A stretch of DNA of 26,694 nt, from IMG/VR virus record IMGVR_UViG_3300025120_000451, positions 1 to 26,694 of that record; one strand, given 5' to 3'. Each line of letters begins with the position of its first letter. Position 1 is the stretch's first letter. This stretch comes from a virus. Position numbers and translations under genes: made by a program. A model generated the notes under the pieces. That model did no database searches, was not told where the DNA came from, and saw only the letters and a program-made list of their open reading frames with translations. This document shows, piece after piece, positions 2,350 to 24,450 of the stretch.

Positions 2350-5300
2350 TTATTTTAATGAATCAGGTGATGTTTGTTGAAAAACATTTTCTGATTGGAG
2401 TTTATTAATTAATTTTTGAACATTTCTTTGTTGTATATCAGTTAAATCATTAGGAATTAAATATCCATCTCCTGATAAGGTTAAAGCACCCTGTGATCCT
2501 GATGGTTGATTTACATTTAATACAACTCTATCATCAGCTTCTTGTCTTTTTCTTAAAGTCATGGCATATATTTTTCCTGTTGGAATTGGAATATCTAAAG
2601 TTGCAGGATTAGGTGTTACTTTTATTCTATCAAATAAATATCCAGGATCTATACATTGACCATCTGCACCATTGGTTGGTCTATTTATTAATGGATTAAT
2701 TGATCCTGAAAAGAATTTATTATCGCCAGTAGTTTTCATACCATTAGTTGGACCTCCCCCTTTATTAGTAGTTAATATATAATTAGTACCAAATATTGCA
2801 GCATGATCTTGACCAAAAGGAAAATCTGCCCCACCACCACTATCAAATAAAGATGCAGTAATACCAATTATTCCCGTTTCATTTACTTCATCACGACTAC
2901 TAACACCAACTATAGAACCACTAAGAAGCATTTCATTACCACTACTATTAATACCTAAAATATACATTGTAGTTGAGTTATTTTTTGCTGTTAAATATTT
3001 ATCTTTAAGTGAACTAAAAGAATAATAACCATCAGCTGGAAGTGGATTTCTAAATGTAGTTGTAACTGAATTTGGTAATTGATAACCATTTAAAGAATAA
3101 CATGCTATTTCAAATCTTACGTCAGTTATAGCATAAGTACTTATATCAAAATTACTAGTATACAAAGCTGGTGGGACTTGATCATATCCTAATACTGTAA
3201 AGTCTTGATATGTTTTATTTAAAATTGCATCGTTATTTAAATTAGGTTGATATGCATAAGATACTCTTATTTCATCACCTTTCTCTACTAAAATCTTTTG
3301 ATTATCTATATCTCTATATTCTGATAGATTTGATCCTGATATATTCCATTTGAAAAAATTACTATCAAATTCTAAATCTCTTTGCGTTAATATAGGTAAA
3401 GAACCCTGACCCCATTCTGTTAAAGGTTTTAGGGCAAAAGTACTATCAAAATTCATAGAAGGTATAACTTGAGTTGCAGGTATAAATGGAAATGTTGTCA
3501 TAGGAGCTCCATTATCCGTAAAAGGTATACCAGCTCCTGGAAGAGGTACAGTAATATTATCATAAGCGTTAGGATGATTAGAACCAACTGTATAATCAAA
3601 CGATAAAGGATTAATATTTTTTAATGATAATAAATTATTAATTGAATTAAATAACATAAGAGATGGACCAACAACATTATAACCAGTACTTGTACCAAAT
3701 AAATCTGTTGACACTGCCATTCCTGGTATTCTTCCAACATTTGGTCCTCTTAAATTAATAATTCCAACATCTTGATTTTTTTCATTTTTTGCACTTCCTG
3801 TAAATGCCATTATTACATTAGGTGAATCATAAAAAGAAGGATTACCAGCACTACCACCACTTCCAATTACAGATATATTATTAACCAAAGGAACTTGATT
3901 TAATACTAATCCTGCAGCACTCATAGAAACTATAGATGAAGTTAAATTAATGGATGCAGATTGAGGGGTGGATTCAATAGCTTCATTTATATTACCCCCC
4001 ATAGATGGAGATATACCTTGTTCATAAGAATACCATTTAGGAAGATCATAAAATTGATTAGTTGTTAATAAATCTAATGCTCTTTCATTTGATTGGTATG
4101 CTGCAAACTCTATTGCTCCAGCATTTATAACTTGTGATCCCACACCTAAATTTGTGTATGTAAGTACATTACCTCCTACATTATTAAAAGTTTTTGTAGT
4201 TTGATTATATACAATGGTTGCTTTTCTTTCAGGCATAAAAGTAGAAGACATTGCTATTAAATTTTCATTACTACCATTTATTAAAGAAGAAGTAATAATT
4301 GGAGATTGTTCACTTAATATCTCTTCAAACGGTACTTGAATTAATTGATCTATATTAAAAGTAGTAGTATTATAATATTCTTTACTTTCTAAAGATGATT
4401 TAAAATGAGCAAAAAAGATTGGATTACGATCAATTACTGCTGTTTTACCTAATGAAATATCACCACCCCAACTACCAGTTTCACCATTAATATATCTAAC
4501 TTTATTTTGAGTTAATAAAAATGGAGGATTAGCTAATCCTGTAATTCCTGTATCTCTAGATCTTGCTGTAAATAAACTTTCTGAAGGTATACCTGTGTAA
4601 AAGTTATAATCTGCACTTTCTAATAAACATCCATTGTATCTAGGATTTGCTGATGATAATATTGTATAATTACTTTCGGGTACTCCAGCAAATTCTAATA
4701 AATTATCATTAGTAGCTATTCCTTCAAATCCTAATTGTGAAGCAGATATAATTAATGAATAATCGTTTGGGATACCTTCTTTTAATTCTGTTCCTGGTGT
4801 TACAGGATCAAAATCCATGTCTAAAAATCTTTCATTAGGTCTACTACCACTTATATTGTTAATTATAGGATTATAAGGTGAATTTTGGAATAATTGACTT
4901 TGAGAAGGTACTATAGTAAATGCATCTCTTTCATAGAAGTGTTTAGGGCCTAAACTATTTATAGCTCTAATATAATTTACTGTAATAGTTGAGGATACAT
5001 TTGAATTTAGTGAACTGTTAAAAAAGATAATACCATTATTAGTGTTATAAGCTGTACCTGCTGTAGTATTATATATAAAACTTGACACAGTAGTGGATGA
5101 ATTAAAAGTACTAGGAAATAAAAGTAAATCAGTAACAGGGCCTGCTGTTAAAGGAGCTCCTGTTAAATCTGCACCTTGCAAATATTTAAAAACATCATAA
5201 TTAGGAAAAATAGTTTGTGTCATTTGATTAAATCCAAGACTAAGTAGTTTATTTGTATTAAAATTATTAGCAGTATATGAGATAGAAACTTCATACTCTT

Positions 5301-8300
5301 GTCCTTCTTGTAAATCGAAAAAAGATCCAGTAAAAGCTTCATATCTATTAGTAAGTGTAATTCCAGTAGTATCAATAACAATAGTATTAGCATTAGTTAC
5401 TGTAAATGCTCCAGTCGTACCTCTTTCACCTCCTTTTGTAAAATCAACATATGGTGGTGGTGGAATTATGTCTGGTGTTTTATCATTTCCATCAGCAAAT
5501 ATTCTATAAGGATTATATTGGGTTGGAATAACTTCAAAATTACTACCACTAAATTCACCATCATAAAATTCTGTTTGATGATCATCTACTTTCCACTCAC
5601 CTGTAAAATCATCTATATACCAATTAACTTGTTGTGAAGCTAAAGGTTCGGGTTTTGCAAAATCAACACTTTCTCCAAAACTAATAATATATTGATCAAA
5701 AGTTACTGCAACGGTACTTACTACATTCCAATATATTCTTTCATCGGGGTATATTTCTAAATAATTATTTGATACTAATGGGGGTGGGTCTAAAGAATTA
5801 ATTCCCTCAAATGTAGTACTAAATATTCCCCCTCTTTTACTAGATGTTGCTTGAAATGTTATATCTGCTGGGAAAGATGGAGCTGGGTCAAATAAACCAT
5901 TCCATCTAAATTGGGATCTAAATGCTACATCTGATTGGATATAAACTTTATTATTAGAATCTAAAGCTATAGATATTTTATTGTTTAGAGAAGGAAAGAC
6001 TAAAGAAGGTATATCTGGAAATAGAGGAACTATTGTTAACGGAACTAATAAATTATCTCCTTCATTTTTATAAAATTGTCCCTCATTAGTTATTATATTA
6101 TATTTATTAACACTTCCTCCTGCACTTCCTGTTAAGGAATACATTCCTATACTTGAAGTAATTAATAAATTTCTTTGTGATATTACACTGTTAAATCCTG
6201 TTTGATCAGTGTATCCATAAACATCAGAGCCGGTTTCAGGCGTTTTAGCTATAGGAGTATTGGAATTAACCCCAATCACTGCCATAGACTTATTTCGTTC
6301 TAATAGATGTTGTTTTACAATAATTCCTGTACTTAAACTTGTACGAGCAGGTACATAATTTTTAATTGCTTTAAATAATGAAGTTTCATAAAATTTAATT
6401 AATCTATTATAATCATATTCTTTTTCAATTATAGTAGGTAATCCACCATTGTAAGTAGGATCATTAATAGTAACACCTTGATATTTTTTAAAATAATCTT
6501 CAGCTATACGAGTTAATTCAGGATATCTATCATTACTTTCAGATAAAAATCTTGGATCAGCTATTGCATCTGATACAACACCATGTCCAAAAGTACCTAT
6601 TATATCATCATTTATTTCATTTTGAAATGAGAATCCAACTTCTAATGAATTTAAATCTTCAGTATAACTAGAACTTTGTTCAAATTCTTGTTGTATGCTT
6701 CTAAAGGGTGATAAAATAGTACCATATTCATTACCATCAATTACTTGTATTTTATTTTTAATTCTATTCCTAATACCAGCTGCAGGCTGATCCATATAAT
6801 TTATTTGGGTATTAGGTGCTAAGTATGATGATGTAATTGCTGCTGTATCTGTTCCATCCCACCCTTGGTATACAATAGAATAACCACTTCCCGTATTATA
6901 ACCTGTTAAATAAAGAAATGATGAAGTGTATAATGATCCTTTTTTATTAACTAAAGAAGGATGAACTGAACCTAACGCATTAGCACCAAAGGATGGGAAA
7001 TTTATAAAATCAGGTGTTCCCCCAAATTTTAAAATTCCAACAGCTTTTGTATTTTCAGTAGCAGTTGAAAAACCAGCAGATCCTGATACCTCTACATATT
7101 CTAACTCATTTCCTAATGGTAATCTATAAGATAATAAATCATAAGAACTACCCTTTCCTGTATTTGAATCTGAATGTCCTTGTATTGATTCAGGATTCAT
7201 TACATAATCATTAAATTGAGATGATGATAATGCTCTTCTATAATATCTAAATTCTTGAAAAGATCCTGAGAATCCCGTTCCTAAGCTTCTTCCCCCAACT
7301 CCACCAACTATAGTATTATTAAGTCCTTGGTTTGAAGGGTATGTCATATATCCTCCTAATATAACCCCTCGTGATGATGGGAGAGAAGCATTGATTGGAG
7401 TTGTTTGTCCTCCTTTATTCCAAGCTTCATTTATAGCAGGTATTGGTCCAGCGGGCATTGTAATTGATGTTGATCCTTGAAATCCTATTTGATTCCCATC
7501 ATAACCATCATATATATTATTTGCTACCTTTAATTCATACTCATTTACGGTATTATCTTCGTTTGATGCAGATATATGAATCTTTCTTTGTAATTGAACA
7601 GACCACCAACCTCCATCAAAAAATGGTAAAGAAATAGGATCACTTTCAAAATATCCGTTAGCATTAGCTGTATCTTCAATAATAAATTGCATGGTTCCAT
7701 ATTGGTAATCTGTTGGTAAAACTGCCCCAGAAAATGATCCAGAATTTGATCCTGAATATTGTAATACAATACCAAAATCACTATAATTTATAGCATTTTG
7801 GGAATTTTTTACTAATAAAGAAGAAGTAAATAGAGAATTGGGATGTCCTGGTTCTTGACTTATAGGTCTATCATTTTTAAATCTAAATTGTATACAATCA
7901 GGAACTGCTATATCTGGAGCTGTTAGATGTTTTGTTTCTACATAGTTAGAATTTAAAGGTACCCAAGGAATTCTTATAGATCCACTAGGTAATAATGCTC
8001 CTTTTTTATAATTATATGTAGTTAAAGCATTACTATAACGATTCATCCATAAATCATAATCGTTTTCATCATCCTTATTTTTACCCCCAAATTCACTTAT
8101 ACGAAGCATTGTATTGGGAACACCCCATATATTAATTAATTGTCTTAACCCTGTAACTGTACCTTTTCTTTTTACTAAAGAAACCATATTATGAAATATT
8201 CTTTTATATATTTCTTGAGCAGCATTATCTATAGGATAAGGAAATGAGGGATCGGCTAAAGCAATAACATATCCTAAAGTAGATTGTTGTTGATCATAAT

Positions 8301-9969
8301 AATTTATTACTGATCCTGATGCTATATCTATATAACGATCAATATATTCTAAACCAGACCCTGCTGTTGGGTATACCCCTACACCATTAACATTAAACCC
8401 AATAGAATTAAAATCATTTCCATAAGTATCAAATCCTAAAGATTCTATTACTTCATCAGCTAATCCTAAAGGTAAAACGTCTCCTGTTAAACTAGAATCT
8501 GTATTTCTAACTTGTTCTACAGCTTCAGTATAAAGATACATTTCATCAAAAGTTTGTCCTGTCATATTTACAAACTTAAGATATTGATCATTATTATTAT
8601 TATTAGTTATAAAAGGTGGAATTAAAAAATATAAATAATCTTGATTATTTTCATCATAAAGTGAAGCTGATAGTATTTGATTTTTTCCTGTATTATAATA
8701 AGGATCTAATTCATTAGTACTACCAAACCAATTTAATGCTGCTGAACTTGTTATTGAATAATTTTTATAAGGATAAGTTGTTGAATATTTAGGCCAAGAA
8801 TTTGATCCTGTTATATAGTATAAAAAATATTCATAACTATCAAATTTTCTAATAATGTTATTTATATTATTACTTATATTATTATAACTAGAAGAATAAT
8901 CAGGTGTTCCACTAGTAACACCAGTAATAGTTTCAAGTGCTGCTAATTCTGTTTCGTAAGATTCAATTGAAGATATTTTTGATTTAAAGTTATTTAATCT
9001 TTCTTTTGCTGATGAATATTTTACAAACTGATTCCAGTCAGACCAATCTTTTCTTAAAATAATTCCTTTTTGACTATTTAAATTATTAAATTGATAGTAT
9101 GATTGTGAACTTATAGTATTAACTAAATCATTTAGATTTTTTGGTGGGGTAGAATTATTTATTCTATCTTTTATATCTATATTATAATTAGGACCTTTTA
9201 ATGAAAGTAAATTATCTATAAATTCTAAATTAGGTTGGAAGTCTACTGAATATACTTGAGTTTCTCCTACTTTTGAAATTATTTGTAATTGTTGATCTAT
9301 TTCAAATTCAGAAGGTAGAGGTTTATATAATTTTATTAATATTGAAGTTGGATCAGTTGACCCAGATATAACAGTTTCTAATTGACTGTTTACAGCTATA
9401 AAATTTCTATTATTACCAAAAGAAATATAAAATTCATCAACATTTTCTCTTGCATTTATTTTATTATTAAATTGGTTATAATAAGATTCAATTTGGTTTG
9501 GTGTAAGAAAATTATTTTGTATTCTTAATTCTGTTCTATCTCCTGATATTTCTGATAGAAAATAAGGGTGTTGGTTAAAGCTTTCGTCTTCATTTTGATT
9601 TTCTTCTTCTGATCCTAGTTCATAATCTACAAAATTATAAAGAGCATAATAATTTCCTGAAGAATATCCTTGGTTATAAATATCTTCAGTAGGATTTATT
9701 TCAAATTGATTATAACTAGATGTTGATGTTGATATATTTAATCCTGACTCAGGTGATATAAAGGATCCGTTAGCTGAGTAGTTTGTATTTTGATATAATA
9801 TAGTTTGTGAATAATCATATATATAAAATTGTACTTTGCTTTTAAATGGAGTAAAAGAACCTGTTAGTTCAACTGATGGAACAATAGCATCTAAACTTAA
9901 TTCATACCCTTCTTGAATAAAAACTTCAGCGTTTAATTGATTAATTGATGCAGAAACTGGTATAGCCAT
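2350..9969 (-). CDS. Giant tail/baseplate structural protein with lectin-like (LamG/concanavalin) domain
   Basis: One uninterrupted reading frame of 2539 residues, the largest gene in the window (7.6 kb). At about residues 585-630, a segment YKRIFHNMVSLVKRKGTVTG... followed by ...INIWGVPNTMLRISEFGG resembles the 'lllpllhKtKGT...l..l....gip...i.EyG' segment seen in P2 gpI-like or baseplate-attached tail proteins. About residues 690-920 look like a concanavalin/LamG-type jelly roll (IQFRFKN..., GWWSVQLQRKIHIS, then a closing FSGSFQEFRYYRRALSSSQF). Around residues 1510-1610 there is a possible carbohydrate-binding-like beta domain, and the C-terminal part is again beta-rich. There is no signal peptide or membrane segment. 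It follows the gp6 and gp25 baseplate genes, so it probably forms a baseplate periphery, tail-fibre or receptor-binding component. T4 gp7 occupies a comparable place but is far shorter and I see no clear similarity. Confidence 0.75.
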   Translation of the reverse strand: MAIPVSASINQLNAEVFIQEGYELSLDAIVPSVELTGSFTPFKSKVQFYIYDYSQTILYQNTNYSANGSFISPESGLNISTSTSSYNQFEINPTEDIYNQGYSSGNYYALYNFVDYELGSEEENQNEDESFNQHPYFLSEISGDRTELRIQNNFLTPNQIESYYNQFNNKINARENVDEFYISFGNNRNFIAVNSQLETVISGSTDPTSILIKLYKPLPSEFEIDQQLQIISKVGETQVYSVDFQPNLEFIDNLLSLKGPNYNIDIKDRINNSTPPKNLNDLVNTISSQSYYQFNNLNSQKGIILRKDWSDWNQFVKYSSAKERLNNFKSKISSIESYETELAALETITGVTSGTPDYSSSYNNISNNINNIIRKFDSYEYFLYYITGSNSWPKYSTTYPYKNYSITSSAALNWFGSTNELDPYYNTGKNQILSASLYDENNQDYLYFLIPPFITNNNNNDQYLKFVNMTGQTFDEMYLYTEAVEQVRNTDSSLTGDVLPLGLADEVIESLGFDTYGNDFNSIGFNVNGVGVYPTAGSGLEYIDRYIDIASGSVINYYDQQQSTLGYVIALADPSFPYPIDNAAQEIYKRIFHNMVSLVKRKGTVTGLRQLINIWGVPNTMLRISEFGGKNKDDENDYDLWMNRYSNALTTYNYKKGALLPSGSIRIPWVPLNSNYVETKHLTAPDIAVPDCIQFRFKNDRPISQEPGHPNSLFTSSLLVKNSQNAINYSDFGIVLQYSGSNSGSFSGAVLPTDYQYGTMQFIIEDTANANGYFESDPISLPFFDGGWWSVQLQRKIHISASNEDNTVNEYELKVANNIYDGYDGNQIGFQGSTSITMPAGPIPAINEAWNKGGQTTPINASLPSSRGVILGGYMTYPSNQGLNNTIVGGVGGRSLGTGFSGSFQEFRYYRRALSSSQFNDYVMNPESIQGHSDSNTGKGSSYDLLSYRLPLGNELEYVEVSGSAGFSTATENTKAVGILKFGGTPDFINFPSFGANALGSVHPSLVNKKGSLYTSSFLYLTGYNTGSGYSIVYQGWDGTDTAAITSSYLAPNTQINYMDQPAAGIRNRIKNKIQVIDGNEYGTILSPFRSIQQEFEQSSSYTEDLNSLEVGFSFQNEINDDIIGTFGHGVVSDAIADPRFLSESNDRYPELTRIAEDYFKKYQGVTINDPTYNGGLPTIIEKEYDYNRLIKFYETSLFKAIKNYVPARTSLSTGIIVKQHLLERNKSMAVIGVNSNTPIAKTPETGSDVYGYTDQTGFNSVISQRNLLITSSIGMYSLTGSAGGSVNKYNIITNEGQFYKNEGDNLLVPLTIVPLFPDIPSLVFPSLNNKISIALDSNNKVYIQSDVAFRSQFRWNGLFDPAPSFPADITFQATSSKRGGIFSTTFEGINSLDPPPLVSNNYLEIYPDERIYWNVVSTVAVTFDQYIISFGESVDFAKPEPLASQQVNWYIDDFTGEWKVDDHQTEFYDGEFSGSNFEVIPTQYNPYRIFADGNDKTPDIIPPPPYVDFTKGGERGTTGAFTVTNANTIVIDTTGITLTNRYEAFTGSFFDLQEGQEYEVSISYTANNFNTNKLLSLGFNQMTQTIFPNYDVFKYLQGADLTGAPLTAGPVTDLLLFPSTFNSSTTVSSFIYNTTAGTAYNTNNGIIFFNSSLNSNVSSTITVNYIRAINSLGPKHFYERDAFTIVPSQSQLFQNSPYNPIINNISGSRPNERFLDMDFDPVTPGTELKEGIPNDYSLIISASQLGFEGIATNDNLLEFAGVPESNYTILSSANPRYNGCLLESADYNFYTGIPSESLFTARSRDTGITGLANPPFLLTQNKVRYINGETGSWGGDISLGKTAVIDRNPIFFAHFKSSLESKEYYNTTTFNIDQLIQVPFEEILSEQSPIITSSLINGSNENLIAMSSTFMPERKATIVYNQTTKTFNNVGGNVLTYTNLGVGSQVINAGAIEFAAYQSNERALDLLTTNQFYDLPKWYSYEQGISPSMGGNINEAIESTPQSASINLTSSIVSMSAAGLVLNQVPLVNNISVIGSGGSAGNPSFYDSPNVIMAFTGSAKNEKNQDVGIINLRGPNVGRIPGMAVSTDLFGTSTGYNVVGPSLMLFNSINNLLSLKNINPLSFDYTVGSNHPNAYDNITVPLPGAGIPFTDNGAPMTTFPFIPATQVIPSMNFDSTFALKPLTEWGQGSLPILTQRDLEFDSNFFKWNISGSNLSEYRDIDNQKILVEKGDEIRVSYAYQPNLNNDAILNKTYQDFTVLGYDQVPPALYTSNFDISTYAITDVRFEIACYSLNGYQLPNSVTTTFRNPLPADGYYSFSSLKDKYLTAKNNSTTMYILGINSSGNEMLLSGSIVGVSSRDEVNETGIIGITASLFDSGGGADFPFGQDHAAIFGTNYILTTNKGGGPTNGMKTTGDNKFFSGSINPLINRPTNGADGQCIDPGYLFDRIKVTPNPATLDIPIPTGKIYAMTLRKRQEADDRVVLNVNQPSGSQGALTLSGDGYLIPNDLTDIQQRNVQKLINKLQSENVFQQTSPDSLK

Positions 9970-21436: not shown

Positions 21437-21464
21437 TAATAAAATATAACTATAAACCCAAATT

Positions 21465-21478
21465 ATCCCCTAAGGGAT
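21465..21478 (-). terminator. Hairpin at the 3' end of the tmRNA coding piece, possible weak terminator
   Basis: The minus strand forms ATCCC-TTAG-GGGAT (5 bp, 4-base loop) about 60 bases after the tag stop codon. It is followed by AATTTGGGTTTATAG, which is only moderately T-rich, so intrinsic termination would be weak. It could instead be a terminal hairpin that defines the processed end of the coding RNA. Confidence 0.4.
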
Positions 21479-21497
21479 CCTCCACCACCGGGCTTAT

Positions 21498-21531
21498 ACG
21501 ACTTGCCCTGTTAAATGCCGTTTAGCTAGGG
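21498..21531 (-). other. Candidate H-type pseudoknot in the tmRNA after the tag
   Basis: On the minus strand, stem 1 pairs CCCT (21528-21531) with AGGG (21506-21509). Stem 2 pairs ACGGC (21517-21521) with GTCGT (21498-21502, one G-U). The order S1-S2-S1'-S2' is that of an H-type pseudoknot, the class normally found downstream of the tag in tmRNA. Stems are short, so this is a hand-derived model. Confidence 0.45.
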
Positions 21532-21538
21532 TACCTAA

Positions 21539-21571
21539 TTAGGCAGCCATCGCTAGTTCAACTTGTTCGCC
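21539..21571 (-). other. tmRNA proteolysis tag reading frame (GEQVELAMAA-stop)
   Basis: Within the coding piece the minus strand gives GGC GAA CAA GTT GAA CTA GCG ATG GCT GCC TAA. Alignment of the upstream bases (TAACT before GGC) with the E. coli pattern (TAGTC before the GCA resume codon) puts the resume codon at GGC. The charged Ala would be added first, giving A-GEQVELAMAA. The Gly-Glu opening and AMAA ending resemble Bacteroidota tags (for example GENNYALAA, GEESYAMAA, from memory), while Glu-Gln-Val-Glu-Leu in the middle is its own. Confidence 0.75.
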
Positions 21572-21710
21572 AGTTATGCGTATGATCTTCATTATATTCT
21601 TACTTTATGTCAAATACCTGTACATCCCCGTATTTTATTGTATATATTTAGTGGAGATGGTGGGAATCGAACCCACGTCCAAAAAAGCAGCTAATATAAT
21701 TATAAACGAT

Positions 21711-21718
21711 CAAATATA
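21711..21718 (-). promoter_or_regulatory. Candidate Bacteroidota-type -7 box (TATATTTG) of the tmRNA
   Basis: The minus strand reads TATATTTG immediately before the first P2 bases of the acceptor piece, an exact match to the Bacteroidota housekeeping -7 consensus TAnnTTTG. No TTG at the expected -33 distance was found (TTG lies 14 and 27 bases upstream), so the match is partial. The phage-motif core TATTTATA (21722-21715) overlaps it. Either would place the transcript start at the beginning of the acceptor piece. Confidence 0.4.
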
Positions 21719-21722
21719 AATA

Positions 21723-21923
21723 TTATATATCCCAATCTTCTTCAGCAATCTGTAATGCTAAAAGAGGAGACATATTTCCATCTGATTTAGACATTGTTGT
21801 TAAAGCATAATATACAACTTCAACTAATTTTTCTTGTCTGTTTACTCTATTAATTATTTCAGAAATTTTAATAATCTCATCACTTCCTACTTTATCTAAA
21901 AACTCTTCTTGAAATTTATCCAT
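21723..21923 (-). CDS. Small acidic helical protein of unknown function, 66 aa
   Basis: A 66-residue protein, mainly helical and acidic (MDKFQEEFLDKVGSDEIIKI, then SEIINRVNRQEKLVEVVYYA, then a tail ending LLALQIAEEDWDI). It lies 16 bases downstream of the oxygenase gene, and its stop codon abuts the tmRNA promoter region. The spacer before it is an ATT microsatellite (21924-21939). No family recognised; coding status rests on composition and tight packing. Confidence 0.55.
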   Translation of the reverse strand: MDKFQEEFLDKVGSDEIIKISEIINRVNRQEKLVEVVYYALTTMSKSDGNMSPLLALQIAEEDWDI

Positions 21924-23285: not shown

Positions 23286-24083
23286 TTAAAATCCTAAATG
23301 TTTTTTTCTTATATAATCTAAATCCCATGAAGTATAAGAATTAAAATATTCTTTATTATTAAATGGAAATTTGTAGGGACATAATCTTCTCCAATGCTCT
23401 CCCCATTTTTCATTTAAATATTCGTAATTTTTTAAATCAACCTCATCTAATTTTTCTTTCATTTGGGGTTCTTCTTTAGATGTTTGTTGACCATTTTTTT
23501 CATAATCCCAACAATTAGCTATTTCTTTTCCATGTAGATAAGTATTATCTAATCCCCTACAAATTTTTGGGTCTAAATTTAAAATTCTCATTATATAATC
23601 TGTATCTTCTCCATAAGCCGGATATAAATTTTCATCAAATAATCCTACAATTCTTACCCCCATTTCAGTTATAGCAAATAGATCATATGTACCTACATTA
23701 TTTTCACCAGCTCTAGGATGAATCATACTTATTTCTTTATCTTGTGCCATATTTGAAAATTCTTCTAATAAACCTGGTGAGAAAGCAACATCATGGTTAG
23801 AAATTATCCAATATGGTTCCATTAAAAAGGATTTAATGATTAAATTCCAAGCTGCTGGGACTCCTAAATTAGAAGGTAAATGTGTTATGTGTATATTTTT
23901 AATAAATTTATTAGATATATTTTTTAACTTATCTAATTCCCTATTAATCTTTCCTCTTCCATTATTATTAATTATAAATAAATTATCTACAGGATAATCA
24001 ATTGATAACATTAACCTCTTTACCCAATGAACTCCATTTACTACTGGGACCCCAATAACAGGTATACTTTTTTTATCTTCCAT
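23286..24083 (-). CDS. GT-A fold glycosyltransferase (family 2-like)
   Basis: A 265-residue protein with a Rossmann-like GT-A start (SIPVIGVPVVNGVHWVKRLM), the nucleotide-sugar region with LPSNLGVPAAWNLI (69-82, the 'N.G...a.N' motif), a metal-binding equivalent of DxD in WIISNHDVAF (92-101), and the acceptor-side ED motif in LYPAYGEDTDY (153-163). It should transfer a sugar from a nucleotide donor to a protein, glycan or DNA acceptor. The C-terminal part (HWRRLCPYKFPFNNKEYFNS) is aromatic-rich. The start overlaps the stop of the SET gene by 11 bases. Confidence 0.82.
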   Translation of the reverse strand: MEDKKSIPVIGVPVVNGVHWVKRLMLSIDYPVDNLFIINNNGRGKINRELDKLKNISNKFIKNIHITHLPSNLGVPAAWNLIIKSFLMEPYWIISNHDVAFSPGLLEEFSNMAQDKEISMIHPRAGENNVGTYDLFAITEMGVRIVGLFDENLYPAYGEDTDYIMRILNLDPKICRGLDNTYLHGKEIANCWDYEKNGQQTSKEEPQMKEKLDEVDLKNYEYLNEKWGEHWRRLCPYKFPFNNKEYFNSYTSWDLDYIRKKHLGF

Positions 24084-24450
24084 TTCTTTTATTTTTTAAG
24101 GGCCAATAATTATCTCCATAATAAGTACAAATTTCTTCACTAATATTTATATCTCTTTGAGCTATAAAATCAAAATGGTATGGAATTTTACTATCAAACC
24201 ATAGTGCATTATAATTTTCATCATGGTTATAAATGCAACCAAATCCTAAAGGTAATACGTGTTCAATAGCATTAATTTTTGGATAATTAAAGATGTAATC
24301 ATGTAAACTATTACTAATAGGATCATCTGCTTTAATACAATAACATGTTTCTATAAGCTCTTCCTTTTTAATAAACTTATCAGTAAATACTCCATATCCT
24401 TTCTCATCAGTCCATTTTACATATAAATTATTAGGTACTTTAATTTTCAT
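24073..24450 (-). CDS. SET-domain protein (putative protein-lysine methyltransferase)
   Basis: A compact 125-residue protein that is essentially one SET domain. The N-terminal strand motif KGYGVFTDKFIKKEELIETC (17-36) contains the GxG-type SAM loop. GFGCIYNHDENYNALW (69-84) provides the NH...N motif, and ISEEICTYYGDNYW (103-116) gives the 'GEE..t.YG' motif with the catalytic tyrosine region (Y110/Y111). SET enzymes methylate lysines (some methylate arginine or ribosomal protein side chains). A substrate-free assignment is all the sequence allows; the target could be a virion protein or a host chromatin/ribosomal protein. It overlaps the TPR gene by 11 bases and the glycosyltransferase gene by 11. 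Confidence 0.82.
   Translation of the reverse strand: MKIKVPNNLYVKWTDEKGYGVFTDKFIKKEELIETCYCIKADDPISNSLHDYIFNYPKINAIEHVLPLGFGCIYNHDENYNALWFDSKIPYHFDFIAQRDINISEEICTYYGDNYWPLKNKRNGR

Follow-up and report, generated by a model that had tools for sequence, protein, structure and literature searches.

A circularly permuted tmRNA gene with Bacteroidota-type signals in a marine phage and its relatives

The window analysed here, a stretch of 26,694 nucleotides from IMG/VR record IMGVR_UViG_3300025120_000451, is a fragment from a marine virus. A tmRNA gene was found on its minus strand. The order of elements on this strand is permuted: the 3' strand of helix P2, the T arm, the 3' strand of the acceptor stem and A21652 are followed by a spacer, the 5' strand of the acceptor stem, the 5' strand of P2 and the tag reading frame. 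The 3' strand of P2 (21680-21700) comprises two helical blocks, 21700-21694 and 21689-21680, in the alignment of the window to R1, a held-out covariance model built from relatives alone with the window excluded. The T arm (21660-21676) has the stem GUGGG/CCCAC and the loop UUCGAUU. The acceptor 3' strand CAUCUCC (21659-21653) and the discriminator A21652, together 21652-21659, are separated by a 22-nt spacer (21651-21630) from the acceptor 5' strand GGGGAUG (21623-21629). The latter pairs with 21653-21659 in all seven positions, G3-U70 among them, and marks the predicted mature 5' end of the coding piece. A recount of the sequence reproduced exactly the ends 21652 and 21629, the spacer and the complete acceptor pairing given in the first-pass annotation. 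There is no CCA end in the DNA; the bases encoded after the discriminator are CUA, so CCA is presumably added to the 3' end. The spacer is presumably excised, by analogy with the known permuted form.

The coding piece continues with a segment (21591-21622) containing the D-like sequence UUUGAC, which is of Bacteroidota type, and the 5' strand of P2. The tag reading frame (21539-21571) reads GGC GAA CAA GUU GAA CUA GCG AUG GCU GCC UAA, that is, GEQVELAMAA, with the resume codon GGC at 21571 and the end of the stop codon UAA at 21539. It is followed by an H-type pseudoknot (21490-21521; ACGGC/GUCGU and GGGC/GCCC) and by the 3' part of the RNA (21448-21489, the extent given by ARAGORN, the 3' end being approximate). 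The latter contains the hairpin AUCCC/GGGAU, which among the relatives is confined to the sub-clade of the window.

ARAGORN calls a permuted tmRNA (its asterisked class) at 21448-21743 of the minus strand, with the tag GEQVELAMAA. The Rfam models of alpha-, beta- and cyanobacterial permuted tmRNA (RF01849, RF01850, RF01851) have been merged into RF04321 (tmRNA_permuted), which scores the locus at 69.7 bits against a gathering cut-off of 47 (E 9.9e-12). The old beta_tmRNA model RF01850 matches only in part, at 43.2 bits and below its cut-off of 84, and the standard one-piece model RF00023 gives 32.2 bits, also below its cut-off (47). The held-out model R1 scores the window at 164.5 bits (E 4.9e-38). 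The features expected of a permuted tmRNA are present: the acceptor 3' strand and T arm preceding the acceptor 5' strand with a spacer between, the G3-U70 alanine identity pair, a resume codon opening a frame that ends in -AA, and a pseudoknot behind the tag. Thus the circular permutation proposed in the first-pass annotation stands. The same annotation had named a better standard tmRNA elsewhere in the phage as evidence against it; ARAGORN and the RNA models found no second tmRNA anywhere in the record.

Relatives were drawn from IMG/VR using a minor-coat-like neighbour protein and two DNA patterns. The same permuted gene, in the same order, was recovered in about 40 or more contigs, in agreement with the phage setting proposed earlier. 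In nearly all loci found with the tag pattern ARAGORN reads a permuted tmRNA, with few exceptions bearing the tag GEQVELAMAA or a close form. Two such loci missed by ARAGORN match R1, L224 at 168.7 bits and L237 cut by the contig end. One locus found with the acceptor pattern, L089, is of a different, betaproteobacterial-looking type. Three further viral permuted tmRNAs (L326, L336, L359) have other G-first tags, GTYNAPLALAA and GAYNAPLALAA, and all three contain UUCGAC. Locus L216, from a viral record of 247 kb, has a permuted tmRNA just above the RF04321 cut-off, with a tag that looks cyanobacterial by eye (ANNIVAFTRQTALV).

One relative, L007, has the two neighbouring genes without the tmRNA between them, and its flanks share 90% and 85% identity with those of the window. 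This is a natural empty site, and the comparison shows that the tmRNA was gained or lost at one site. The gene is also missing from Immutovirus; thus it is dispensable in the wider phage group.

Covariation was analysed in 22 relatives, leaving the window out, at 28 pairs of the acceptor, T stem and P2. Standard pairs make up 98.5% of the cells, with two-sided change in 12 of the 28 pairs. Covariation scores 0.402, compared with 0.157 for shuffled alignments (exceeded in none of 500) and no more than 0.112 for slid ones. In P2, two-sided changes were observed in 9 of the 16 pairs between its strands. The T stem is paired in 100% of cases, with two compensated pairs. The acceptor retains 7/7 pairs in every relative; its position 5 covaries between A-U and G-C, and G3-U70 does not vary in any of 30 rows. 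So the acceptor and P2 pairings do covary, the absence of which would have spoken against the first-pass reading. Two-sided changes in the pseudoknot were read off the alignment; its second helix occurs as GGGAU/AUCCC, GAAGC/GCUUC, GAGGC/GCCUC and other variants. The spacer sequence is not conserved, its length being mostly 16-22 nt. In three relatives (L234, L238, L219) it reaches 68-70 nt, with repeated AT-rich units around ATATTCA/GATATAAT inserted within the spacer segment.

The resume context, AACU directly before GGC, fits the AAYU-GGN context of Bacteroidota tags. When bacterial genomes were searched with a pattern demanding AAYT-GG and a tag beginning with G-E, the matches were mostly Bacteroidota; as the query itself contained the motif, it is the identity of the matching genomes, not the motif frequency, that is informative. 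A pattern specific to the tag of this family had no match in bacterial genomes. The tag frame and its -MAA end are kept across relatives. In five divergent loci the frame starting at GGC spans 36-38 residues and still ends in FAMAA or ALMAA, an argument for translation of the tag and for selection on its end. These long tags, found in L267, L269, L324, L272 and L351 (for example GKQVNTTIASIFASLSAIRSLSQETIVAKEQVFAMAA followed by the stop), are misread by ARAGORN; the tag of the window has ten residues.

A promoter-like motif, AATATTTATA (21715-21724, minus strand), lies immediately upstream of the tmRNA, and its core is nearly invariant across 37 relatives. A count over ten phage stretches gave 33 copies of ATATTTATA on the coding strand against a single copy on the opposite strand. 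Of the 33 coding-strand copies, 16 are situated just upstream of start codons; the motif also stands directly before the tmRNA. Judged by this distribution, the AATATTTATA/ATATTTATA motif is probably a phage promoter. The window also encodes a protein with sigma-70 region 2 (PF04542; 18793-19602, minus strand), which may be a phage sigma factor that recognises the ATATTTATA motif.

In the phage collection, the closest relative of the window's baseplate wedge protein is that of Flavobacterium phage immuto, with 44.9% identity across 99% of the query, closely followed by Microcystis phage Mel-JY01 (42.9%). A second neighbour protein matches immuto alone, weakly. Shine-Dalgarno-like motifs precede 2 of the 25 genes of the window, and scarcity of such motifs is usual in Bacteroidota. 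From the immuto-like baseplate and the rarity of these motifs we infer a Bacteroidota host. The UUGAC loop, the AACU-GGC context and the G-first tag bear out the Bacteroidota-like tag and translation signals noted at first sight. SmpB was not found in ten contigs of the family, and thus the phage tmRNA must rely on the SmpB of the host. Other genes on the minus strand of the window encode a SET-domain protein (24073-24450; PF00856, E 1e-8) and a 2539-aa open reading frame (2350-9969).

Permuted tmRNA is known from Alphaproteobacteria, Betaproteobacteria and Cyanobacteria, and one-piece tmRNA is the rule in Bacteroidota. The gene shares with the alpha-, beta- and cyanobacterial permuted forms the order of acceptor piece, spacer and coding piece, the acceptor, T arm and P2 pairings, and an RF04321 score above the cut-off. 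It differs from them in the UUGAC loop, the AACU-GGC context and the G-first tag, as well as in the partial, sub-threshold match to RF01850. With the standard tmRNA of Bacteroidota (tags such as GENNYALAA) it shares the loop signature, the resume context, the G-E start and the A-L/M-A-A end of the tag; however, the standard RNA is in one piece with the opposite order and has no ACGGC/GUCGU pseudoknot. This pseudoknot motif was found in 2 of 4 sequences from crAss-like phages, a prophage-like region and L255, in none of 101 bacterial standard genes and in none of 42 other viral permuted sequences.

Phage-borne permuted tmRNAs are already published. The tmRNAs of Methylophilales phage Melnitz and of pelagimyophages are likewise phage-borne, marine and permuted. 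For the Melnitz tmRNA, an alphaproteobacterial origin and a link with a glutamine riboswitch have been described (PMC9004378), whereas the window has Bacteroidota-type signals and no riboswitch listed by the RNA-family search. The hint in the first-pass annotation that a permuted tmRNA in a phage is unusual in itself was too strong, as 53 of 133 unique phage tmRNA structures had been suggested to be two-piece (PMC9004378). A database of 2025 lists 79 unique phage tmRNA sequences (PMC11915505). A blastn search with the tmRNA of the window against phage records gave no match at 1e-5. What is new is the phage lineage of Bacteroidota type: no description of it was found in the open papers searched, and it may be listed elsewhere without a name.

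RF04321 was run, with filters stricter than usual, on 395 genomes sampled from the phylum to which a marine Bacteroidota genome belongs. A single genome exceeded the cut-off, and it also retains a standard tmRNA. Its permuted gene adjoins two tRNAs in a stretch with genes for a DnaB-like helicase, a DNA helicase, a family A polymerase and an exonuclease. The helicase, polymerase and exonuclease genes match phage families, and we read the region as a prophage or phage-like island. R1 gave weak matches in sampled genomes of the order and phylum. Among the 15 loci fetched, ARAGORN reads a standard-form tmRNA in 12 and the permuted gene of the island in one, and makes no call in two; one standard gene was read by eye as well.

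Related permuted tmRNA genes are carried by the crAss-like phages cr60_1 (annotated SsrA) and cr53_1. They resemble the window in the permutation, UUUGAC, the AACU-GGC context and an alignable coding piece, and differ in a longer spacer and in the tags GNTSYVMDYTRLAA and GNTSYVMDYTGIAA. Their RF04321 scores, 40.3 and 50.3 bits, are near the cut-off of 47, compared with 69.7 for the window. RAGATH-9 and RAGATH-20 RNAs occur near the permuted tmRNA of cr60_1. Two Cellulophaga phages (Flavobacteriia phages; L390/L391), phi40:1 and Calle_1, were considered as further carriers and rejected: they do have a tmRNA, annotated in Calle_1 and unannotated in phi40:1, but in the standard form, and the tag given by ARAGORN looks wrong.

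It is highly probable that the phage carries here a working tmRNA gene, circularly permuted and of Bacteroidota type. The processing, charging and tagging, as well as the benefit to the phage, we infer as follows. Transcription would probably start at the phage's own promoter (AATATTTATA). In the folded precursor, the two halves would be kept together by the T arm, acceptor stem and P2; host RNase P would cut before G21629, and host 3' processing would trim the RNA to A21652 and add CCA, the loss of the 22-nt spacer yielding a two-piece RNA. This would be charged with alanine via G3-U70 and carried to stalled ribosomes by host EF-Tu and SmpB. GEQVELAMAA would then be appended, and the tagged chain released and degraded by proteases. 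The phage may benefit by keeping ribosomes free during infection or by recycling host protein.

As for the origin of the gene, coding pieces were aligned and scored against shuffled controls. The family coding piece has a median Z of about 5-6 with bacterial standard tmRNAs and a Z of about 5-8 with the crAss, prophage and L255 sequences, compared with a median of about 1-2 with the 42 other viral permuted sequences (single ones up to 13.8). All 37 relatives have UUGAC in the D-like loop, as do the ten family members included in the same scan. The bacterial standard set, which had itself been picked out with a Bacteroidota-type pattern and consists largely but not exclusively of Bacteroidota, contains 89 UUGAC, 11 UCGAC and one with neither among its 101 genes, whereas the 41 other viral permuted sequences have 36 UCGAC, one UUGAC and four with neither. 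Because the coding piece resembles standard Bacteroidota tmRNA more than other viral permuted ones, and given this distribution of the loop, the comparison leans towards a separate permutation of a Bacteroidota-type tmRNA in phages. We give about an even chance to a fourth, independent origin of permuted tmRNA in a phage lineage, from which it would later have passed to unrelated phages of Bacteroidota (tailed marine phages, gut phages of the crAss-like group and the phage-like island), with the hosts keeping the standard gene.

A somewhat less probable origin, with the same working, is acquisition of a permuted tmRNA of alpha-, beta- or cyanobacterial type from a different phage or from a host; the Bacteroidota-like loop, resume context and tag would then have evolved later by convergence to suit Bacteroidota hosts. 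Permuted tmRNAs of other types are indeed common in viral contigs and known in marine phages (PMC9004378), RF01850 does match in part, and the tRNA-like core is short enough to converge. Against this stand the same coding-piece alignments and the predominance of UCGAC in the other viral sequences.

Another possibility is that the RNA is made without being charged or decoded and acts as a decoy blocking host tmRNA, in the way that the tag-less tmRNA form of phage DS6A is reported to inhibit endogenous tmRNA in E. coli (PMC11915505). It is very improbable here, as the tag frame stays open and retains its -MAA end even at 36-38 residues, and the resume context, G3-U70 and the pseudoknot are all conserved. 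A pseudogene, or a relic of a host gene left by imprecise prophage excision, would agree with the existence of relatives such as L007 and is hardly credible in view of the strong compensatory change over many divergent contigs, which already contradicts it, the conserved upstream motif, and the lack of a permuted source gene above the cut-off in the sampled Bacteroidota, save for the phage-like island.

tmRNA frees stuck ribosomes and tags half-made protein. Its permuted form has been described from three main bacterial groups, to which a phage-only lineage with Bacteroidota signals would add. If this reading is true, phages can give rise to the permutation, or maintain it, without its fixation in the host, and these genes provide a natural case for asking why a two-piece tmRNA is tolerated. 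It would also mean that Bacteroidota phages, including crAss-like gut phages, supply their own ribosome-rescue RNA.
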